Positions 3,901-55,900 of a stretch of 64,000 nucleotides of DNA are shown here, in pieces (position 1 is the stretch's first letter; each line of letters opens with the position of its first letter). Below the pieces are notes generated by a model that was not told the DNA's origin, did not search any database, and saw only the letters and a program-made list of their open reading frames with translations. The position numbers and the translations under genes are program-made. The stretch comes from Thysanoteuthis rhombus. Taxonomy: Eukaryota > Mollusca > Cephalopoda > Oegopsida > Thysanoteuthidae. The stretch spans positions 2,358,003 to 2,422,002 of the forward strand of contig OY735234.1 in NCBI GenBank assembly GCA_963457665.1. Reading direction: 5' to 3'.

Positions 3901-6831
3901 TCAATGCACCAAGAACTGTCCTAATGAGAGGACATGCTGTTGACCAATTATGACTATATAACATTGTTCACAAAAGCTTTCATTAGGTCGTGAATTAATT
4001 TATTTGCATTCCAATATCTTGCGCCACAAGAATCACAGAAATTCCTTGTGGCAAGGCCAGGGATTTCTCTTCAGTTGCAAGCTTACGCTATATCCAAGTC
4101 ATAGAGCTCCAAAAGCAGCTAAAATGAAAAAACAAGCTTGCAGATTGAGTGATCAGCAGTATGTCTTTTCAGATGGACAGTTCTAGGTACACTGCCGCCA
4201 ACTCTACCTTGGCACAAAGTCTAGTGATGTGGATAGTTGCCAGATGTACAATGACTTCCTTCTGCCTTTTAGTTGGAGGGAAATCAAGTTCAACCGAAAC
4301 ACACTTTTGCTTGTTTAATTCTATTTTGCATTTTTGATCTATAGATTTCTTTTTTCCATTGTATATGAATACGTAGGAAAAAGAAATAATCTCTTAAACC
4401 CCCTGGAAATTCAACTAATCTTTCCTTACCCTTTGCCTAGCCTTCCAGAACATTTAAGAACTTTTTGAGGTATAGTATGGACAGATAGCTTGAAGTAGAG
4501 GAAGTATAAGTAAAAATTCTGGGATCAGCCCTAAAATTCAATTCTTTCTCAGCTGTTGAGCCACTTTACCACAAAATCTCATTGAAATTTATTGCAAACT
4601 TTTGGAAAAATTACTTAGACAAACAAACAGACATAAATGAATACATATACCTCTTCCAATTTTGTTGGCAGAGGTAAATGATAATAATATGGGTGTTATA
4701 GAGAAGGAGAATCAGAAAATATATTTAAAAGAATAACAAGGGAATCAAAGGTACAAATTTACATTGAGTTACCTCCCTTGAAATTGAAATCCAACCTTTT
4801 CGACTGTCGTCTTTTTCATGACTTGTTTGCTGAAGAATAATAAAAGGTCTCTGTTGATCAGAAAAAAATCTGGATCTACCTGAGAATTTAATCAATTCTT
4901 ACTTAGCCCATAGACTAGCCTTCTAAAAAATTTCATTGAAATTAGCTCGGAGCTTTTGGATGTATTGTCTAGACAAGCAGATAGATGGACGACACTAATG
5001 AATACATATACCTCTTCCAACTTTGTTGGCAAAGGTAATAATTGTTATGTACTTATATTTGTTTGACAAAGCAAACTCTGGCACAAGTAATGAACTGACT
5101 CACCAATTATGATTTTAAGATGGCCATTGTTCTTTGACTAGTGCTTTTATGTTTATATATAGATATATGAGTACTTTTTTTCTTGAAAATTGAAAGCTTA
5201 ACTCAATATAATAGTACATAAAAATAGGTATTGTTCTTACATACTGTTACACTTAGTCAACTTAATTTCCTTTAGCATAAAATATAGTTTGTGTTTTGTA
5301 TATGTGGATGCAAATATGTAAATTGTGATGATACACCATGGAATTTCTATAGGTTCTATTCATTTTTTTTTTTCTCTACAGTTGAAGCGAGTCCTGATAC
5401 CAAATCTGATTTGGAATTCTCTTCATTGTATTCTACTGAGAATACTCCCTCCAAGAAACATCGTCCATCAGATGAAAAAGAAAACATAGAAGAAGAAGAA
5501 AACATAGAAGGAGATTGCTCTGTTGGGATTTTAACGTCACTGCTTGATGAAGAAGATGTGGGCAGAAATGATGATTTTGAAAGTGTAAACTCTGATAGTT
5601 CAGGAAATTGTTACACGTCTATCAAAGATGATGACAGCAAAGCTCCAGCCAGTATCACTGAAGAGTTAAGCGAAGAGGATCCGCATTCCATAGCACTTAC
5701 TGAAAAATCTTTGGTTTCTGAAGGTATAGATTCAGATTTGATTAAGCCTTCCGGTGAGGATTTTACTGTAAACTCAAAATCAGATGGACTCTGTCGAAAC
5801 CGTTTTGCAGTTCATACAAAGAGTAAAGAAAGGTTCAATATTAATGCTACAAAAGTTGAAGTGAAAAGCCGGTAAGTAACATTGATATTACTCAGTCACC
5901 GAGAAGAGAATTACTTCCTTGCACTCGGAAAATTGGTTGAGGAAATAATTGAACTTTTAGAATCATATTCATTTGTTACTTCTTTGAAATTATGGAATGG
6001 TCCTGAAGCAATAATGAAAAATATATTTTGTCTGAGGGATTTATTTGTGGTATCGGATTTGAATACAATTAATGTCCAGTTAACAAATTTATATAATTGG
6101 TTTGATCAAGTAAGGGCTACTGAAAAAAGAATTGAATTGTCTGAACATTTTCAGAACTATTTTGTCATCTTTTTTTCTTAACATGAAAGTTCTGATCTTC
6201 TGCAGCTGTTGTACTTCGTAAATTTACAAGTGGATGATCACAAAACATCATTAGAGTATTCGTATGATTTATTTTGGTGAACATATCCTGTAGTCTAGTA
6301 TTTATTCTTAGTTAGATCGAAATGATTAGTAGAAAGCAGTATATTTTGGTATGAAATAAATGTGCCAAGTATGCCCTCCCCACAAACAGTTGGCACTATG
6401 TAGCAAATAACACAACCCTATAACGAACATCATTATTATAGAATATTGTAATACGAATGTGTAGGGGATCTATGTACAAATAATGTGTTTGTTCTCTTCC
6501 AATTATTTGTGAATGCCACTTGTATATAGGTAAAAGTAACTCTACCTGATTAAGCCAAAAGATTTACAACTTTTGTGCATCAATGTATTTTAGTAAAATA
6601 AGTGATAATTCTTTTGTGGGTTGATGCACTCAGCAGCTGAAAGAAGTCTCAAAGGTAAAATGTCAGCTGTTGAGTTTTGTGGTTTATTAAGTTTTATCTC
6701 TTCAGATAATCTTTTTTACAGCTATTTTACTCCTATCCCTGTAAACATTATATATATACATATATATAAAAAGACATTATTTTTAAAAGTTATTTTATAA
6801 TTATTCTGACAGATTGAATATCCATTTCTTT

Positions 6832-32100: not shown

Positions 32101-35100
32101 TTTCTGAAACAGGATACAGATAAGGTTCATTTTCAACATATAATGAACTATGATGACTTTGATCTCATTGTTTTACCTTCCCTGTTCCTCCAGAGATGAA
32201 CAGACTCCGCAAACAAAAAAGATTACAAATGGGAAATGTGAAGGATGCATTATCATTGTCATCTATGAAGTTCTCATGACAAGAAATCTATTGAGATGTT
32301 TATTTCCACTCAGTCCACTCTGATAACAATTCATCATCATCAGCCTTTTAGCATCCGTCAATAGATATAGACCTTCCCCAAGGTTTGCTATACCTCTATC
32401 ATGGGCCTTGCAGAGCCAGTACTTTCTGAATTTGTCTAGCTCATCACACCATCTTACTTTCTGATGGCCACGATTGTGCGTATGATCTCTGGGGACCCAT
32501 ATTGTGAGTTGTGATGTCCAGTAGTTGTCTGACATTCTTGCAATATGTCCAGCCAATTGCTTTTTGAGTTTTCTAATTGTTTCTATCATATCTCAGACTT
32601 CTGTCCTTTCTCTAATGTACTCTCCTGTGGATGTTGCATGGTTCTCAGTTTGAGGGTTAATCTTTTGCTTAGATTTTATATTCCAGTTCTACAGGTGACT
32701 ATCGGGAGGATGTTTTCAGTTAAATGATGAAAAGATATAAAACTGTGATAAAAGATCTTATTTTTTCAACTTGACCAGCAGTTGAGAAAGCTTAGAAACT
32801 TACATACCAACGAGGGAGTTTATTTGACTGAGTCAAGGGGTCGATTTGAATCTTACAGGCTTCTTAGTTGAGAATTTTTCAGTTTATCAGAAATTATTTA
32901 TTGATAATAATAAAGCCCCATTGGATGTCCAGATTTTGAAAATCCAGTCCTATATGAATTTCGGTACATCACCAATAATTGTTTAATTGTTGCTGTAGGA
33001 TCATGGTCCTGATCTGATAAGTTGCTTTGTCTAATAGAGGGATTGAGTTGTCAGTCTTTTGAGGTTTGGGTACAGTGAATAGCTAGAACATATCTCTCCT
33101 AACACTGGTCAGTATGTCTATTTTATGAAGCTGGATTCTTGCCGCCTCTTGTGACCACATGACCAATTGAATCCACCAACAGTAGGTGTGATAAACAACA
33201 CTCACAAATCAAGTGAAAAAAAAACACAAGATTGGCAACTGTATGGTGAAAGCACTGGACACTTTCAAGGATCTAAACACATTTTTATGTATTTGGAAAA
33301 TTTTATAACACACTTTTGAGATAGTTGTGGCACACAGTTTGAGAACCTCTAACTTAAAGAGTTGAAGATTTCCTTCAGTTAGTTAAGTGTCTTTTCAGGA
33401 TACACTGAAGTGAAAAAAATAGCAAGGTTTCAAATGTGAAAATGAAAAATTGTGAAGGTGGTTGTATACATATAACATTTGGGTGTGGTCGGCTGGTAAA
33501 ACCATTCCATTTCCTGGGCCTAATTTTTCCTAATATTTTCCGAAGTTTTGCTTAGTCAGAACTGGGTGTGGCGTCTTTGACACTGACCCTCCACAATCTC
33601 TTAACTGATTCCTATCTTAATTCTACCCTACTGCCCTCTCTATTTTACCCTTCCCTTATCTGCAATTTTCTCCTGTCTGGCTTTGTTATTACTGTCCAGC
33701 CTACCCATTAGTGATTTAGGGCGGTTATGTAAGTGTTGCTATCTGCACTTGGTGGTGTGGATGGTGGGGGGGACCAGAAAAAGGGATGGAACTCTGTTTA
33801 GGATATTTGTAAGTAGAGATGTTATAAGTTGAGCATAGCTCAAATCTCAACTCCTCTCCCATACATATTTTCTTGTATGTGTATGCTGTGTAATAATACC
33901 TTCCTTTATGCCTTTTTTTTCTCTCTTGTCTGCAGGTTAATGTAATGCATTGTCAACTTTAATATAATTTTAGGCAAGAGAAATTGAACGGGTGGATAGC
34001 ATTGCTTTGCTCATGGAGGCCAAAAAAAGATGCATAAAAAAAAAATTTGATTCATATAACATTTCTTTATAGATCAGGAGGCATTCTAAAAGAGGAAGTA
34101 GATATGTATCCAAATAAGAAAGCACTCAGAGAGTGCATATGTCTGCCAATGCCATTGTCACTAAAAAAACAAATAAAAATCAGTTTATACATAGCTACAA
34201 TTCAGGGTAGGTCACTGTAAAAATTCCTGGATCAGTCTCTAAATTTAATAAATAATTCCTTATCTTGAGGCCTACCCTTTCAGAAAATGTCATTGAAATT
34301 CTTTGAGAACTTTTGAATGTATGAATGCATGAAAAAACAAGAACTGAAAATTCAATGAGACATTCACTATAAAGTTTAAATGCCATTATATCTAGATCAT
34401 ATGACACCAAGAAGTGATAATTCTAAGAAGCATGTTATCAAGAAATAGGTTTCTATCAAGTTTCAAGTAAACTTGACTCAAAACAGCTGAAAAAACCGAT
34501 TCTAAATCATAAATTTTGAAAGCCATTATTGCCAGATTATGTGATCCTGAGTGGAAGATTTATCTTGTCAAGAAGCATCTTATCTAGAGACACCTTTCTA
34601 CCAAGTTTCAAGAAAATCTAACTTGAACAGTTGGGAAACAGAATGAGGACAAACCTGAAGATTGACAGTCAGGCAGCGCCTCTTGAAGATCTGAAAATCC
34701 TGGATTCTCCCCCAAATTTAATTATTTTTTCGTAATCCTTGGCCTGCTCTTACAGAATATTTCATTTATATTCATTAAGAACTTTTGGAGTAAATACATA
34801 TACCTCTGCCAACTTTTTTGTCTTCTTTGCATATCATTGCTTACATGGATTGAACAATGTCTTGTATGAGTCAATTTTTTTTTGTCTTGATGCAACCAAA
34901 TGTATTCTTTTTGCATTATAGTTTTTTGCTTTCTTTCTGTTTTTTCTACTTTCTCCCTCTAAATATCCTTACACCTTCTTCTAATCCTGTACTTTGTTTC
35001 TCTCTCATTATTTACCTCATGCATTTTCTTTTCATTCTCTTTCCTTTCCTTTTCTGGTTTTGTCTCTCCTTTTTTTTCTGTTTTTGTCTCTCCTTTTTTT

Positions 35101-38100
35101 TTCTGTTTTTGTCTCTCCTTTTCTTTGTTTTTGTCTCTCCTTTTCTTTCTGTTTTTGTCTCTCCTTTTCTTTCTGTTTTTGTCTCTCCTTTTCTTTCTGT
35201 TTTTGTCTCTCCTTTTTTTTCTGTTTTTGTCTCTCCTTTTTTTTCTGTTTTTGTCTCTCTTTTTTTTTCTGTTTTTGTCTCTCTTTTTTTTTCTGTTTTT
35301 GTCTCTCCTTTTTTTTCCTGTTTTTGTCTCTCCTTTTTTTTCCTGTTTTTGTCTCTCTTTTTTTTCTGTTTTTGTCTCTCCTTTTTTTTCTGTTTTTGTC
35401 TCTTTTTTTCTGTTTTTGTTTCCTTTTTTTAATTCTTTCTGTTTTTTTTGTTCTCTCTCTAAATTGATCCTTTGTTTGCACCTGGTACCAACCTAACTTA
35501 TTTTCAAAGATCACTGCCGAACAAATGGTGAGAGAAGACCCTATTCATTGTTAACCTCTTTTTTCAACTTTTTAATTGATCACCCCTAACATCACATGCC
35601 GCCTAAAGATGCTGATCATGTGACAGTTTCTATTTGGTGACTGACTAGACCTATCATTTAATTTCTTCATTCCTTCTTTATCTTCAACCTTTCCTCTCCT
35701 CCTACTTGCTTGGTCACGTCCTTGAAATGAAGTGCAAAGATCAGTTCAAATTAAAGTTGCTAGATTCTTGTCTCTGAATTTTCAAAACCTTCTCATTGAC
35801 CTCTAATATTCATTGTTGTTATTACATCTTCACCTATGCATATAAAGTGGGACATTCAAAGCTCTTATTATTTGTCAATGACAATGACAGAACTTTACAG
35901 GATGAATCTAGAATTAGCCTCTCTAAATGATTGTTTTCAGAATCCTCTCTTCCTCTCCTTTCACTCAATTATTATGTTGCTTCTGTAAGTGACACGCATT
36001 TTATTCTTGACTGGGCTTTCAGATGATAGACTAAAAACATGAACCAGAATAGACGTAAACAGCTTGCATTGATTCTTGATTTGGATGCACTGCTAAATCT
36101 TATAATAATAGACATTTGCCTTGAGTGATTGAAACAATTTTTCTCTCTGAAAATTGTGTTTTATCCCAAGAAAACAGTTCTGTGCTTCAGATATTTCATT
36201 GGCATAGGTTTTAAACTGTATTCCCGAAGAGTTCCATGAATCTGGAAGCAAAAAAGTTTTTCTTTTCTTGTTCTGGTCAAAAACTAACATCCATGATTTT
36301 AAAATGCAGAAGCCAGAAGAGGAATTAAAACTGCTTTTTTCATTGGCCTGACCATAAGCTGGGAACAAAGACCTACTTCTGACTGTGTTTACATTTAGAA
36401 ATGTACGGAAGCCTAAAAAAAAAACATTGAGTTGTATTTTCCCTTTCTCGCTGACTAGAAACTCAAATTGTGATTATTTTTTTGCAGTAAATATATTTAT
36501 ACCGGAAGAAATGAATTTAATAGTTTAAGCAAATAATTTATTTCCGGGTTAAATATCAGTAGGCCCCGTAGACCTTCTGCCAGAACTAGCTGAAAATCTA
36601 AGCAATAGTTAATTTATTGATATTATAAAGGCTTGCACTTGAAAAATCAGGAAGTCTCCTGTTTCCTCCCTCCGAATGCCAATAAAATGATTTGAATTTA
36701 ATTCTTTTTTTTCAATAAAACTGTTTTGAATTCTGTATTCTTTTAAGTCTTTAAAGCTGAATATCACAGGTACTTATATGATGAAGTTATTAGTGTAAAA
36801 TTTGGCCGTTTCTGAATCACTTATTGAAGTCTTAGCAATATTATCTAGAAATAAAAAGGCCAGTAAAGTGTATGATATCTAATGTTATAGATTTTGTTGG
36901 GTTATTTATGGTGCATTTTTCCTCTCCCAGTAAACTCCTTTTCATAACAGTGTCAATAGCAAGTTTTACAAGACAGAGTTGCTTGCCCAAGATGGACTGC
37001 CTTACAGGGCTAGAGGGCTCAAACTGCCCTGCGATTTACCCTAAGCTGGAGATTCATGCCTCTTTCAAGGGTATTAGTGTGTAGTGGGTGTAAGCAGCCT
37101 TGGCTGAAATTTCAACTCGGTTTACCGATTCAAATTAGGGAAAACATTGAATTGGCCACTCTATTTGTATGCCATATATGTACACCAAAGCTCTTATCTG
37201 TCTTTACTCACTTCTAGAAATACTCAATGTAATCCTACAAAGTTTTCTGAGGGTATGGATATGACCCCAACTAATGTTTATAGTAAATTTTCTAGGAGAT
37301 AACCCCCTCCTCCTGCCCTATATGTTTTTAGGGAGATGATCGATTTACAATCAAAATCAATCTTGAAATTGACATATTTTGTGTTCCGCAGCACTCCCTT
37401 ACCATTGACATTGGCATTCAAGGAGGGTATAATTATTATCTACAATTGAACACTGAAACAAGTGATTACAAAGAGAAGAATGAAAGGGAGATATTAATAA
37501 GCAATGTCTACAAGGACTGTTATTACTTATTTATACAGTTGGAATATGAAAATTGAAAGTCTAATTCTTTTATTCTTAGTTGATTATTTACAGTCTATAA
37601 TTGATAAGTAAGGAAAACAATTACTTAAAGAAGAATCTGTTGGATTTAGTTTTACTAAAAAGATTAACATGTTATTATATATCATCACATTAATAATAGG
37701 TGTTACTAATTTTGGCAAACTTATTGCTAGTTTAGAAGTACCACTATTCAGAACTACTTTTGTCAGCTTAAGTACAACTGCCAACTTCTGAATATTACCA
37801 CAATCGCATAATTTGACTAATGTTTTTTTTTTTTTATTATCTCAATTGTACCAACAGATGGTTGTTCTCAAATACTAAGATCTTTTTAATATTCTTTAGT
37901 CTCTACGGTCATTTTGGACTAACAACGCCCAAATATTGCGCTGGTATTTTTTCCCGATAATCTTAGATAAAAGATCTATTTTTTTATGGATAATTTTTGA
38001 TGATTAGTTGTGGTACATGTACTGGCTACGGAGATTCATTTATGGGAGGTATGGATATTTAATTAACCTTTCCTGATCAGCAACTGCTTTGCATTGCTTT

Positions 38101-41100
38101 TCACAAACAGGACAAGTCAATAAAGATGCAGTCAAGTCATTTGAGCATTAACTGTAAATTCATGATAGTTACAAATGTAATTTATCTGGCATTATTTATT
38201 GTATCTACTCGTGTATTGCCTATGAATAGAAAAATCAAACCATCAAATAATTGTACTCCTATATCTACATTTTGAGTATCATTTCCTCAAGTAATTGTCC
38301 TGAGAAAAAGTTAAAACAATAATTTTTTTCATCATCATCATCATCATCATCAGTCTCTTGATGTCCCTTATTAGTTATAGACCCTCTCTAGGATTTGCCA
38401 CATTTCTCTTGTGGATGTTGCGGAGCCAGTACTTTCTGAATTTGTCTACTCCATCTAGTATTCTGCCGGCCTTGGTTATGCATTTGATCTCTGGAGATCC
38501 ATGTTGTGAGTTGTAATGTCCATTGGTTGTCTGCCATTCTGGCAACATGACCAGCCCATTGCCATTTGAGTTTTTTTAATGGATTCTATGATGTCTTGGA
38601 CTCCTATTTTCTCCCAGATATATTGTGCTGTCTTGTGGTCTCCATGTCAGGTTGAGCATAATTCTCTCATGTGCACATTGCTTGGTTCTCAGTTTGCGGG
38701 TCTGTCTCTTGGTTAGGTTCCATGTGTCAGCACCATAAGTTACCATCAGAAGGATGCATTGGTTGTATACCTTTCTTTTGAGAATAAATGGGATCTTCTT
38801 GTTTTTGAAGGTTGAGCTTGCTCTGCCAAAGGCTTGCTATCCTAGGTTGATTCTTTGGACTTTCTATATATATATATATACATGACTGATTCTGTGTTTG
38901 ATTGATTTAAATTTTTTTTTTGTGCAATCATCAAGTCCAGCAGAATTCAAAATATTAAGAGGGAGAAAATGGTTAGTTCTGAGGAGAGCGAAGAGGAAGA
39001 GAATTTTTTTCTTTTCATATATTGTAATTAAAAACCTGTTATATTCTACAAAAATTACAAAACATTACACCATAAAATTTTCTGTGTGCACAAATGTGAC
39101 CCCTGGAAACATTTTCAGCTAATTAGTTTATGAAAATCACTCCCCAGAATATGAATGGGAGTTAGGGGGTTGATTTACAATTTTGTGTCAGCTTTTCTGT
39201 TTATTTTCTGAGACAGCAGTATTTCTCTTAAGTCAAAAAAATCCTCTGATATTCAACACTGGCATTAAAGTGTTTTTAATTTGCTCATTTCTTTTTGAAT
39301 TAAAAAAATGCAAGAATGAACGCATGACTAAAAATATAAAAGGATGTTTTAAATGAATGAATTTGAATTAGAATTAAACAATTCTTATTACTTTTTTTTT
39401 TATGTATCTCAAGATTAACGAAACTTTTGAATTCAAATTTTCAAGTCACATTCATATGATATTTAGGTAATTTTTTGATGGTTAGTTCTGTTACCTGTAC
39501 TGGTTATGATCTGTTCAATGGTCACATTTTTATAAATGTGTGTGTGGAATTCAAAAAAAACAAACTCATTTGATTTTCATCAATAGATTTATCAAATTTC
39601 TCATTTTTTCAAATATTCAATTATTTGCAATACAAGGTTTGATTTGAATAAATATGAAAATTTGCAATTGAGGTTGTAATAAACCTCACGTCCCTTCTCA
39701 CTCGATGTTGAGAATAGGGTAGAAAAAAAATATGAAAGAAAAATGAAAGTAAATACATAAATTTCAAGGTTATTTTTGCTTATACGTGTTTTTAAAAAGG
39801 TTAGCTATAAAATGGCTACTTCGTTGAACTTTGGCAATCAAAATGGCTGGGTTTTAGGTGATAGTGTGCGGGGTTACTCTTACAGTTATGACATATAGTT
39901 CAGTTTTACTGGTGGGTAGGATGGGGGTAGGGTTGGGTTATGAGTTGGGGGGGGGGTTGTTACAAAAGATTTGATTTCAAGACTCAAGACAAAACAATCA
40001 AACAGTCGTTGTGTAACGGAAAGGCAATTTCATTTTCAGTCAAAGAAGACGCAATGTAATTCGTTTTAATGACCCAATTTATTTTAAAGAAAGAATTTTA
40101 TTTTGTTTTATAAAATTATGTAAGGAAAAAAGAAACTATAGAAAATATATTGATGCATCTCAAAAGTTAATTAAAATGACGGGGTACCGAGAATAATAAT
40201 TCTATTTTAAGCTGAAGAAGAAACTAAGTGAATTTAAATGATTCAAACGTAGCCGTGTTGGTAAGGTTAAATGGAAGAAGCCATTTTGTAGCTAACCATT
40301 CTTAAAAACCCGTATTAGTAAAAATAAACGGTTCAAATCGTATTTACATACCCAAATCTTGTGCTGGTATTTTTTAGATAATTAGGTCTGGTACATATGC
40401 TGGCTATGGTGATTCATTTATATGAGGTATGGATATTCCATTTACCTTTCCTGATCAGCAATTTCTTTACATTGCTTTTCACAAACAGGTAAAGTCAATA
40501 AAGATGCAGTTAAATCATTTAAACATTAACAATGAATTAAAAGTTAATTAGAATGACAGTATACTTAAAATAATGATTCTATTTAGAAATATATATACAA
40601 TCGGGAAGGTCAGTTTTGTCTATTAATTTTAAATTCTGATAGTAAATAAGTGAAACGTTTTGGTGATAAGATCTATCAAAAATAATTTACGTTGTTCAAC
40701 CAGAAATTACAGATTTATCCAGCTTATTTTGAGGATCAACATACATTAAAAATGACTTAAGCTGTTCAAACTGAATTTGCCAATTTACACCGCTTATCTA
40801 AAGGATTACCTTCTGCTTATTTAAAAGAATTTTTTTTTTTTACAGCAATACACTACTTTCTGTTAGGGCTGGTATTTCAGCTAGTACATATATTAATAAC
40901 TGGGAAAACTCTATTTGTCTGTCTTCTATTAATGGCCAAACAGTTTGATGTAGACCTAATAAATTTGGTTCACAAACTGATTGGATGCAGGGGAAGGTTT
41001 TAATGTAAAATGATTATAATGAAGTCGATTCTCACTAGAAGAGAAGCCAAGCTTCCTTTGCACAGCAACCAAAATAATTTTACATAATTACTGTAAACAC

Positions 41101-44100
41101 AAACCCCTTCCAAAACCAACGTTGCTAAAAATGAACCTTGATGCACCTGAATAAAAACGATGTTTTCCACATTTTTTCTGATTACAGAATGAGTATGTGA
41201 CATACTAGGCTGAATAAACTATTGTTTGTAAACATCCTGAATGAATGTAGAATAGTCTAAGTATTGGTTTCAATAATGCTTAATAAATTCTGAATAAACC
41301 ACTGTTGGCAGACATATATATATATATTCAGGGTGTCTGATGTTTTACAAAAATTCGAGGACTGAATAGATATCCAGCAATTAGGCATAACTTGACTTTG
41401 ATGAAAACAATACTTACCTGCTCACTATCAGCGCTAAGGAATCGTTTTACTGACATTATAACCAGCTGCAATCTAAGTCTTGACCTCTTACCCTATGTAG
41501 ACTAGTACTTCAGCTAGTATATGTATAATTTTTATTTTGTGTGTGTATCCTATTATGATTAGGACTTTCATGCTGGTTCATTGATTTGCTTGTATTAAAA
41601 TCCCATGAAATAGTTACAACTGACTCTCAAGCTGTTTACAAATATAGCCTTATGAATTAAAAAGTGCTTTGTTATTTGTCTATATTTTTCAGAATATACC
41701 AAGATAGTAAATTAAAAAAATTATATGCATTTTTAAGAGGATTTCACAGGATGCATTATTCACATAAATTCCATAAAGATATGTATGAAGCACGTCATTT
41801 TTTTCCATTATGAATTTGGGTAAAACTAAACCAAAATCTGTTACTGAAAAAAGTTGGGACAATTTTATTATCATTTGCTAACTACAAAAAAACTCAGTAG
41901 TAGTAAGTGATGTATAATTATCTTGTCTACTAAATATGTAAACTATTAATCCCCGTTAAAAAAAAATTCATGGATATATTTGAATTTCTATGAGATGATT
42001 TTTTTTTTCTTTAGAAAAGAAACTACTGAACTCATTTAAGTGAAAGCATCCATTGTTTCAGATTGTCAGTTGGAGATACTTGAATTAGTAAAATTGTCAC
42101 CTTCAAATGGAAGAGTCCATTGTTATGAACAGAGAAACGAACAGAAAAAGTCACACTGTTCATCGTATAGAGTTGAACATTCAAACGAGCAATTACAAGC
42201 AGAAGAATAAAGGGGAGATATTAAAAGCATTGTCTACAAGGACTGTTATTACCTATTTATAAAGTTGAAGAATAAAAATTAAAAGTATAATTCTTACAGT
42301 TTATTATTTACAGTATCAGTAATTGATAAGTAAGAAAACAATCCATTAGATTTACTTTTACTAAAAATTAGAATTTTATCATATATTATCACTTTTATAA
42401 TAGGTGTTATGGATTCTAGCAAAATTATAGCTAGTTTAGTAGTACAAAGATTCTGGACTACTTTTTTCCACTGCCAACTTCTAAATATTACCACAATCAT
42501 ACAATTTGAGCTAGGCTCTTTTAAAAAAAATCTCAACTGTACCAAAGGAGAATGGTTCTCAAATACTAAGATCTTTATAATATTTTTAGGTCTCTATGGT
42601 CATTTTGGACCTACAATGCCCAAATCTTGTGCTTGTATTTTTTTGATAATTTTAAATAAAAGATCATTTGAGCATTAATCATAAATCCATGATTGTTACT
42701 AATGTGATTTATTTGGTATTATCCAATATACTTACTCATTTATTGCTTATGTAATAAAAAAATCAAACCTCCGAATAATTGTACTTCTATATCTACATTT
42801 TGTGTACCATTTCCTCAAGTAATTGTCATGAAAAGTTGAACCAAAATTAGCATTCATTCAAAATGATCAAAGAAATGATTCTGGAAAAAGGTGAAATATT
42901 TTTTTTAATGCTTCTCCATCTTTTTTATAAATGATTGATTCTGTGTTTTTTTGATCTAAATAGGTTTTTTGCACAATCATCGAGTCCAGCAGAATCCAAA
43001 ATGGATATAACTTCACCAGAGAGGCCTAAAGTCGACAAACTTGCTTTCAAGTCCCCCAGTCAGTATAAGTTTGAACGCAATCGATTAAGCAGTATGGAGA
43101 AGAACTCTTTGTCAATTTCCAGTGAAGAAATTATGCACAAAGGGCGGACTTCATCAAATGCTTCTGCTTTTTCCTGGCGACAACAACAATTTGCACGTAA
43201 CCAAAGCATGGACAATTTTTCTGCTCTGAAGAGTGGTAGCCAGCAGACAAATTTGAACCAACAGTTCCAAATGCCAGGCTTTCAATGCAATCCCCTTGTG
43301 CGGCATAATTCAGATGGTGGCAGTCGTATTGGTGGAGGTCGTGATGGTAACAATCGAAGTATGCCAGTGCCAGAGAATGACAACTACGCAACAAGAAATC
43401 AGGATAATGACTGTGGCCAGTCAGATATTAACCAAAGTGTTACAGCAAGCACGTTTTTTAACATGTCTCGGTGCCCGTCAATGAATCTGAGTGAGAGCCC
43501 AGGTTCACAAGATGATGATGGTGAACCGGGCTCACAGAAGCACACTCCAGTTAACTCTCCTATTGATTCTTGGATAGGATCAACAGAGGTGAGTGATATT
43601 TTGTGATCATTTTGAACTGAGGTAGTTTTTTTTTAATTTTTAGATGAAGCTTTTCCACTATTTTTATTTATTTCACTAGTTTAACTTTGTGATAAGTATA
43701 TAGACAATTTTATAGGAACTTTTTTTTTGCTTGGCACTGATTTTGCTCGGTACTGAAACAAACAGCCTTGGATCATGTAAATGAATAAAGAATGAGCATG
43801 TTTGAATGAACTCATGTCCACCTAGGAAGCCGCTTTATATGTATACCACTGAGCTAATGACTCTATCATAGCAAAGCAGTAGTCCGAGTGCACTGATATT
43901 ACCCATTTCTTTATTTACATTCCATTCATAGGCATAGCTAGAGATTTGGGGGGCCCAGGAAGCTTGGCTCCTTAAGATGGCCCCTCCAACATTTAGTTAG
44001 TTATTGTATAATCTCAGTAGGTGAACTGGTATTCATAATGCTTATAGAGGCCCACTTCAGGTAGGGGCCTGGACATATTTTAAAATAGCCCCCAACAACT

Positions 44101-49000: not shown

Positions 49001-49870
49001 TTGGATAAGATCACTAATGGATTATCCCCTCCTTTTTTTTTCGTCTCCTGTTTTATACATCGTTACCTATCAAGTGCAGTTGGTATATATATCTTTGGTG
49101 AAAATATCAAATTAAATAGTAACTTTATTCTACAAGAACCTGCATTCTTCTCACATGACCTATTATTTGTACTATGCATCCTATTTTTAATGGTGATGGG
49201 AAAATGTCTTCATGAATTAGAGATTAGTGATAAAATTGGTTGCTTCCTCTCTGCATTTATGTAATAGAATTAAATTGTTATTTGAATTAATGTTGCATCA
49301 TCATCTTAGTGTCCGTCGTTGGACATAGACCTTCCCCAAGATTTGCTAGACCTCTCTCTGAACTTGTCTAGATTGTCATGCTATCTTACTCTATGTTGGC
49401 TACACTCTCACATACGATCTCTGAGAATTGATGTTATGAGTGGTGATGCCCAGCGGTTGTCTGACATTCTAGTAACATGCCAAGCCCATTGCCATTCGAG
49501 TTTTACTAATGGTTTCTCTGATATCTTGGACTCCTCTACTTTCTCTAACATACTGTGCTATCTTAGGATCTTTCCATGTTAGGTTAAGCATAATCCTTTC
49601 ATGTGCATTTTGTATGGTTTTCAGTTTGAAGGTTGATCTTATGAAACCTGAAATATCTGTTCATCCTCTGACCTTTCAGTGTCAGCCAGTGATTTAACTC
49701 ATTTTCAGTTTTACTGTTTCATTTACAAATTTCAATTGTTGTGAAGAATTGAAAAACTCTCTGCTGCTCTTTAGTCATCTGTCAAATGAATTGTCTTTTT
49801 ATTGATGTCATTCTGTTAAGGTCTGTGAACATAAAAAAAATACACACACACACACACATTCATTCATATG

Positions 49871-52900: not shown

Positions 52901-55900
52901 GATATTATTCTACACATACTAGCAGCTAGGGACTATTTCTCAAAGTAAAGTAACCAAAAATTGAAAATTAATTTCTAAAAAACTGCCAGGAATTAATTGC
53001 ACATTTGTGTATGAACAGGTGATGATTTTGATGGCTCCATTCCCAAAATTCTAATATTGCTTATTGATTAGAATTGAGTTAATATAAGTTACTTGATTAT
53101 TTGATTTGTATATTTTAGGCATATAAAAACATTTTTTCAGTTGGTCTGAATGAAATGATCTATAAATCAGAAATAGTCTGTGGCTATGATATTATAATGT
53201 AAAGAAAACTAATTTATTTATAAGCATGACATAAATTCTGATCTTGAAGACTGAGTCCAATCTTTCACTGAGGCTACTGTATTTAAGCCCAATCCAACTT
53301 CTAATTCCAGTATTAAACGCTTGGAAAATAATGAAGTGGACATTTCTATAAACTTTTCCATATGTCTATTCAACTATGAATAAATCTTTTTTAAATGTAC
53401 ATCAATCAACAAGTTTTGAGCCTTATAGCTATCATTTGTACAATTTTAAAGCAATAAAGAATGACTAAATATTAGTATGTTTTCAGAAAGAGAATGCTTA
53501 TTGAACTAGACAGCACTAAGTGGGAGCATATCTCTGTCATAGCTGTACTCTAACTCGCTCAAAAAAAAAAAAAAATTCTTTTATCTGCCACCAAATTTAA
53601 TCACTTCCCATTACCCACAGTTCAGAAAATTTGATTGAAATTCCTTGAGAAAGACTTGGAGTAATACATATAGCTCTCCAACTTCATGGGCAGAGATGAA
53701 GGAAATAAATAAATACATACCTATGACCACTATATATGAAGTTTATAGTTGTGCATGAGTTATTTCCCTTGCTACGTATTCAATTAATAATGGCTAGGTC
53801 TTAAGCTTAACACTGATTTCAAATCAGGGCCATTTCCCATAGTGGTCTTCTTAAATCGGTTATAACATTGTAGTATCAATCGCTTCTTTATATATATTCT
53901 ATTTCATTCAGTCATTATCAACTTTCTTGCATTCGTCCAACCTCTTTGAATTTATATCACTGGATATTTAATGAACAGTGGTTGATATTCGGCTGCAGGG
54001 GAAAATGATTAGAAATTAATAACTTACAGCAACAGCAGACATTGAAGAACTAGTTTCCAGTTGGCCAGATAAAATAAATTGTATTTTTATACGGAAAAAT
54101 AATATAACTTCTTTTTCATGTGAAAGTTGTAAGGCTATTGTTGATGGAACAAGAAACTTATCCATGTGTAAACAGAATAAGAAACTGATGCATCTTTTTT
54201 CTTTTCTTTCTTTTTTTTCTTTTTTCTTTTATAGCAATGCAGCCTTGCATTCCTCGGATAGATTGACATTTATGTTAGAATGTATGCTTATTGGTGAAAG
54301 TTTTCACATGTTTCTTTTCCGACAGCATAAATACCAGATACATTATTTCTCAGAATTGAAAGCATTATAGTTCTATTTTGATGTTCTGACAATTGCAACC
54401 ATTGCTCTAGTGGAATCAGAAGAAATAATTTTACATGCAATGACAAAAGCAATAGATGTTTTATATTACTTGGCAAATAAATCATTTTCTTATTCTTTCC
54501 TTTTACCTTGACAGCGGTGACAAAAAAAACCAAACACCTTCATTGATGTTTGCTGTGATATACAAGATGGTAAAAGGGTTGGATTGTTTGCTGAATGTTT
54601 GTTAGCATAAAAGGAGACTTTGTCAGAATAAGAATATGTTGCTTATCATTTCGCAATCTGTTAAGCTAGTGTGTGACCTTCCCCAAGTAAAATTTGTTTT
54701 CAAACTTCATATTCTTCAATTCTATAAATTTTTCTAATTCACTATGAAAACACATGTATAAGTATATTTCGTTCCCAAATTTTCAATGTTGGTCAAAAAG
54801 CTTTCAGTGCATATTTGTTTGAATAATCAGAAATCTTACCTTGCACATTGTGACCTACAGACGTTGATGTGCAGAAAAAGCTTCTAATTCATATCTAATA
54901 ATCATCATCAACAGATAAGATTAAAGAATGTGTTGGAAAGAAAATATTGAAGTAAAAGGGAAAAATGCAATAATCAAAGAAAAGAAAAAAAAATTAGAGT
55001 ATTTTCTCACTATTTGTTGTTTTTGAAGAATAAACTTATATTCAAGTATTAACTCTTACATTTATAGACTGCTTGTAATTGAGAGTGGAACTCTTCAATG
55101 ATTAGAAATAAAAATAATGGAACTCCTCTGTGAATGGGATAGAAATTTAAAAAAAAAAAAGTCATCAAACGGTCGAAGGAAGATAATTCTTATCAGAAAT
55201 CGTTTACCTTGATAATGAAGTTCAATTTTTTTATGAATTTAGAACTTGACCTGCAAATTCAATTAGTGAAACTGACAGTATATATTTTTCCTAATAGAAT
55301 CCAACCAACTGTATATTTGTCTCCCCTTTTTCCACTGTAGACAATGCACCTTCCCAATTTCCCAGCACTCCCAAGCCTGCATGTCGTGTGTCCGGCCTTC
55401 CTAAATCAAGAGGGGGTAAAAGCAAACAGTCCAATGCCAGTTCTGGATCCAAGCCTTCTGGACAGCAGAGCATCAAGGACATGTTCTCCAAGTTTGCCTA
55501 TAGTAAAGGGTATGTATTTCCACTTTTTGCTTCCTATTCATGCTTTATACCCACCTATCCACTTAACATTTTATTTCATTTCATTGGAAAGGTTTCCCTT
55601 CTGTAAAGAATTGGATAAATATATTTATGTTTTCATAATGTTTATATTGTTCATTATTGTATATATATGATGATATATTTCTTCTAAATACTCTCCGTGG
55701 ATTTTAAATATGTATTTTTCCTTGGTTACTTTTTATTGTATTTTTCATTGATTGTGAATTCTTAGTCAGCTAAAACGCATTATTTGATTTTATTCAATGT
55801 TTTGGCTGTACTTAAATACATCGATTTTTTTTTAGGGATTTATTTTAGTTTCATTTAAAATCTTATTCCAGTTATTACATTCTGTGTTTGGACTGTGTTA

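Follow-up and report, generated by a model that had tools for sequence, protein, structure and literature searches.

Duplication of exon borders by tandem duplication is well known (PMC6071210). In class 2 templated sequence insertion (TSI/TSIP), as described in PMC5110952, donors are distant and experimental inserts measure 73-414 bp. Here we analyzed a 64,000-nt window of the Thysanoteuthis rhombus genome in which the end of an EXO1 intron and the start of the following exon are present twice, as the live border (copy B) and as a decayed counterpart (copy A). A is probably a non-tandem duplicate that was copied from B into an older interspersed repeat (TE1) of the same intron. A third partial copy (C), joined to a 46-nt copy of a TE1 segment (R2, copied from R1), lies 1.4 kb beyond A in the same repeat.

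Like the tandem exon duplications and mutually exclusive exons treated in PMC6071210, A duplicates exon and flanking intron within one gene; unlike them, it comprises 39 of 625 exon nt, has no acceptor, is not adjacent to its partner and provides no second complete exon. The likeness to class 2 insertions as described in PMC5110952 lies in a copied stretch with an apparent small deletion (~20 bp at A and ~60-70 bp at C, both estimated from alignments of diverged repeats) and with neither a target-site duplication nor poly(A). However, the donor here is not distant, B being 4.7 kb away in cis and in the same orientation, the copied stretch measures ~0.8-1 kb, and we are dealing with an old event that is fixed in the one assembly analyzed. 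A and C with R2 resemble the template-switch duplications of MMBIR/FoSTeS (PMC2621351) in being discontinuous local duplications, although the scale is far smaller here and the junctions are ~16% diverged, so that microhomology is unreadable. If our reading is right, the locus is a clear case of a splice-acceptor region copied to another place in its intron by a route other than tandem duplication, and this route can be distinguished from unequal crossing-over because the target repeat is still recognizable. This bears on exon-duplication studies in which a pair of similar intron-exon borders within a gene is read as the product of tandem duplication. Overall, A is a well-preserved yet ordinary kind of genome scar.

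Table 1. Features of the EXO1 locus (window positions, except in the first row)
Feature	Position	Strand	Basis or remark
Window	C39:2358003-2422002		host genome 2.73 Gb
EXO1 exon upstream of the intron	5375..5871	+	codon-score scan, donor, joined translation; start provisional
TE1, left part, interrupted by A	37192..37445	+	BLAST to repeat loci, E 5.5e-11 to 3.8e-19; left edge provisional
Copy A (duplicate: intron end + 39 nt of exon, LINE-like element inside)	37446..38953	+	self-BLAST, alignment
Dispersed repeat within the copied segment	~37892..38071	+	at least 38 matches elsewhere (40 of 3210 candidates scored)
LINE-like element, in A only	38326..38857	-	at least 39 matches elsewhere (40 of 14642 candidates scored)
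Pseudo-exon start, corresponding to exon nt 42964-43002, AG to TT	38915..38953	+	alignment, joined translation
Hypothetical 36-nt in-frame cryptic exon	38936..38971	+	T10 + AG before, GTTAGT after
TE1, right part, interrupted by C + R2	38954..40886	+	genome search, repeat-locus comparison
Copy C (second insert; intron segment in a third, partial copy)	40348..40538	+	self-BLAST, genome search
R2 (copy of repeat segment R1, 40162-40207), abuts C	40539..40584	+	38/46 identical
Separate dispersed repeat, with its end at the start of B	41938..42171	+	36 matches, 32 ending 42158-42171
Copy B (live intron end + exon start, presumed donor)	42173..43002	+	self-BLAST, alignment, genome searches
Live EXO1 exon, 625 nt	42964..43588	+	codon-score scan, joined translation; acceptor AAATAG/G, donor GAG/GTGAGT

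The gene is EXO1, as judged from its predicted protein and as the earlier note had held. A family search gave four matches (11 of 11 candidates scored), one of them an XPG_I exon 108 kb upstream of the window and on the same strand (C39:2249832-2249957). It is tied to the window exons by position and strand, and its 42 residues have human EXO1 141-182 as top match (E 5e-17), with RAD2 as the runner-up (4.7e-4). Within the window, the exon ending at 5871 has the phase 2 donor CG/GTAAGT and reads AAAAGCCG/GTAAGT, and the border of the live exon reads AAATAG/GTTTTTTGCA. Their phases are compatible and the joined translation reads ...VEVKSRFFAQSSS, in which the final codons of the former supply the K-S-R and the opening of the latter the F-F of a K-S-R-F-F that fits the MLH1-interaction (MIP) motif, R-S-R-F-F at 503-507 of human EXO1 (PMC12049449; further on the motif, PMC8458276 and PMC9243396). 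Phase and motif suggest that the two exons are neighbors, and provided that there is no additional exon in between, the intron measures 37.1 kb. Because the exons join as K-S-R/F-F, the border copied into A would be the intron border inside the MIP motif. Pfam returned no family for any of four queries, namely the frames of three EXO1 exons and an open frame of the LINE. A regular-expression search for nuclease motifs gave SIKDMF at 55469, which is no nuclease motif, as its sole match in the window, and one chance-like DQ..F.P match on the plus strand of the 100 kb upstream.

The border was said to be present twice, 4-5 kb apart, and a BLAST comparison of 37000-43700 with itself bore this out, with collinear matches between 37446-37981 and 42173-42669 (E 1.5e-108), 38137-38324 and 42664-42848 (E 2.7e-48), and 38877-38953 and 42926-43002 (E 5.6e-19). 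Over A (37446-38324 and 38877-38953) and B (42173-42848 and 42926-43002), which share intron and orientation, 627 of 747 aligned sites are identical, the first 39 exon nt included. Identity is 83.9% in the larger part of the intron (562/670, K80 0.183), 31/37 in the intron stretch adjoining the exon and 34/40 in the exon piece from 38914; read off the alignment, 5 of the 39 sites differ between 38915-38953 and 42964-43002. The exon piece translates as FFVQSSSPAEFK in A and FFAQSSSPAESK in B, and the acceptor TAAATAG/G of B is TAAATTT/T in A. Thus A keeps the exon frame open over 12 codons, has TT in place of AG and loses homology 39 nt into the exon, all in agreement with the previous description (AAATTT for AAATAG, homology ending at about 40 nt). 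By eye, the alignment also places ~60 bp in B (~42849-42911) that A lacks. Further homology was sought in the gaps, in the flanks and in the remainder of the exon, but none of eight pairwise tests exceeded its own 100 shuffles (p 0.12-0.94); this test is weak, having missed R1/R2 (BLAST E 1.4e-7) and, for 36500-37445 against 41300-42172, having been unable to see the repeat homology that was found afterwards.

Genome searches, which pass over simple repeats and very common words, gave matches to the three unique pieces searched at this locus only. Pieces 42173-42575 and 42673-43002 of B, the latter containing the exon piece, match only themselves and A (two of two candidates scored for the former, three of three, including two A pieces, for the latter). 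Piece 38072-38324 of A matches only itself, B and C (three of three candidates scored), 38137-38324 being confined to A and B, and 38072-38160 to A and C. The duplication is therefore local, as had been proposed, and the exon piece was found at no other locus. The segment is not unique throughout, for it includes what is by its genome matches an older dispersed repeat, found in B at 42583-42669 and partly common to B and C, which in a further search, with 40 of 1180 candidates scored, again had at least 38 matches elsewhere. That A, B and C might all belong to a dispersed family that includes the exon piece gains its only foothold from this repeat and has next to no probability, since the other searched pieces, exon piece included, are without other matches with all candidates scored. 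Within the sensitivity of the searches, such a family is refuted as the source of the whole segment.

Immediately behind A, 38954-40347 is an interspersed repeat for which at least 49 matches, its own among them, were obtained with 40 of 924 candidates scored. We compared seven repeat loci, six from the search with 38954-40347 and one (L080) from the search with the repeat that ends at the start of B. In four of the seven, the preceding part of TE1 matches 37192-37413, which lies before A (BLAST, E 5.5e-11 to 3.8e-19); alignments of this left flank end at 37380-37426 and reach ~37440 when the two flanks are joined. Moreover, four of six copies (L079, L081, L084 and L085) have the appearance of an empty site, with counterparts of the A flanks in order, 38-51 bp apart and without A, and with left-flank scores of 98-136, where 200 plain shuffles reached 40-45 at most. 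The left flank scores 59.6 in L082 (40.6 in shuffles) but is out of order, and it is at shuffle level in L083 (39.8 against 40.6). The joined flanks align through the insertion site, where ~20 bp of the repeat seem to be missing. TE1 contains internal sub-repeats, with 39050-39157 matching more than one place in several loci, and the left-flank match could partly be to a sub-repeat, which is the main weakness of the non-tandem argument.

C is likewise an interruption of TE1. Self-BLAST aligned 37994-38160 of A with 40372-40538 of C (E 6.4e-50; 142/167 identical, K80 0.168), and 40348-40383 of C is common to B (33/36). The repeat is continuous across the position of C and R2 in both copies aligned there (L079 and L084). 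Because the 38 other matches scored for the dispersed repeat end by 38071 while C continues to 38160, the unique segment is indeed present a third time in C, and independent insertion of C as a dispersed repeat is ruled out by 38072-38160, which the search found only in A and C. C and the dispersed copies together indicate that B lost ~150 bp, which upholds the earlier view of a third partial copy that retained what the live copy lost. The regular spacing of the copies (2423 and 2268) had pointed to a tandem triplication A-C-B, a reading dropped once A and C were recognized as separate inserts in one repeat. We read A and C as two inserts in the one old repeat TE1, and as the distances are alike (A-B 0.183, A-C 0.168, and R1-R2 0.204 over 46 sites only), they may date from a single period or even a single event.

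How might these inserts have arisen? We propose that a broken or stalled copy of the repeat in the germ line was repaired from B, with ~0.8-1.0 kb of EXO1 (intron end and 39 nt of exon) being copied and pasted, in the same orientation, into TE1 4.7 kb upstream. Some 20 bp of TE1 would have been lost at the paste, and template switches would account for a second, smaller paste in which C was joined to R2. We take B as the donor on the ground that it runs on into the complete coding exon, whereas A stops after 39 nt at repeat sequence.

The earlier note had described the duplication as tandem, and this part of it is not supported: A and B are not adjacent, and in place of a head-to-tail pair with no older foreign flank we found TE1 on both sides of A. 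A true tandem duplication of ~0.9 kb could still have been split later by ~3.2 kb of repeats inserted at its junction. A repeat starts exactly at the end of A (38954) and another ends at the start of B (42171), so that repeats fill the A-B gap, yet insertion at the junction would not put TE1 on the far side of A, in four of seven loci by matches to 37192-37413 and in order in four of six copies, and we consider this history unlikely. A giant target-site duplication around a 3.2-kb element, suggested by the repeat ends that abut both copies, was dropped because TE1 also lies to the left of A. The repeat ending at B was searched with 42172 as the query end; with flanks included, 11 copies end at 42152-42176, and homology of B begins within ~10 bp of its end. 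The proposed repair does not account for this coincidence, which could reflect a break at the repeat end, a later insertion or chance.

Pasting of an unspliced EXO1 RNA by a retrotransposon protein, that is, a class 1 templated insertion, appears quite improbable. The genome is rich in LINE-like elements (14642 first-look candidates), and the insert is sense-oriented with the intron retained. Nevertheless, at the junctions ...TTATCTAC/A and CAAAAT/ATTAAG we saw by eye neither a target-site duplication of at least 5 bp nor poly(A), marks that age could blur; the insert ends inside an exon, and there is a small deletion instead. The lack of these marks argues against LINE-mediated pasting, and the micro-deletion fits the break repair proposed above.

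The claim that a LINE is present in the upstream copy only holds as far as the element's location is concerned, but the element does not simply split the B sequence: since A lacks the ~60 bp that B has, either its arrival was not a clean insertion or B has changed. With 40 of 14642 candidates scored, 39 other matches were obtained, which start at query positions 2-53 of 552 and end at 510-533. Membership in the LINE class is suggested by a fragment beside one relative, which gave RVT_1 at E 0.056, short of the cut-off, a second fragment giving no match. The distance between the element and a consensus of 20 close copies is 0.090, which equals within error the A-B distance per lineage (0.092); those copies, themselves at a median of 0.114 (range 0.096-0.142, leave-one-out), come from the top of the list of 39 other matches, were chosen by closeness to A and are biased low, so no order of events is claimed. 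A looser set of 14 copies gave 0.134, a value by which, if taken, the LINE would predate the duplication. The order of duplication, acceptor loss and LINE insertion given previously is plausible.

A is most likely inert, because the acceptor AG is gone, the original exon end is missing and repeat sequence lies behind. That it works as an alternative EXO1 exon, cassette or mutually exclusive, is very improbable. The frame is open over the 12 copied codons, and an AG after T10 with GTTAGT 36 nt on would yield an in-frame insert; against this, the original AG is now TT, the copy has 39 of 625 exon nt, and the end of such an exon would be repeat sequence. A crude splice rule, requiring T8 or longer, an AG in the next 22 nt and GTNAGT after a further 15-150 nt, found eight such sets on the sense strand of the window, 38936-38971 alone having a length divisible by 3. 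Spliced in, this predicted cryptic exon would read KSRPAEFKILRGRKWFFAQ, the last 18 nt being repeat sequence. That it has been re-used to place 12 residues between K-S-R and F-F, switching MLH1 binding, is a highly doubtful prospect; if true, one half of this cryptic exon would derive from a failed exon copy and the other from repeat sequence.

The EXO1 gene extends over at least ~160 kb here, from the exon encoding the XPG_I nuclease domain (G000:C39:2249832) to a late exon at window position 55500. This latter exon, at 55340-55500, is likely a late or the last exon of EXO1, and its translation reads ...GQQSIKDMFSKFAY, a candidate PCNA-binding (PIP) box by likeness. In human EXO1, the PIP box is placed at 788-795 (PMC12049449). 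Two other XPG_I matches in the same assembly could be pseudogenes, or could reflect read-through past exon ends.

Positions of additional XPG_I matches and LINE-like fragments
Feature	Location	Remark
XPG_I match	G000:C27:51401033-51401212	one internal TAA
XPG_I match	G000:C31:3705075-3705218	one internal TAA
Further piece of copy A's LINE-like element	32331-32712	
Further piece of copy A's LINE-like element	49416-49628	

A dispersed repeat at 41938-42171 ends ~10 bp or less from the start of the homology of the live copy (B) to its decayed duplicate (A) at 42173, and the boundary of the copied tract lies at that of a repeat. The two tabulated pieces of the LINE-like element that lies within copy A are elsewhere in the window. 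Short units are repeated at ~34960-35500 in what looks like a minisatellite, with several frames open on both strands upon translation (patterns KKKERQKQ and SLFFCFCL).
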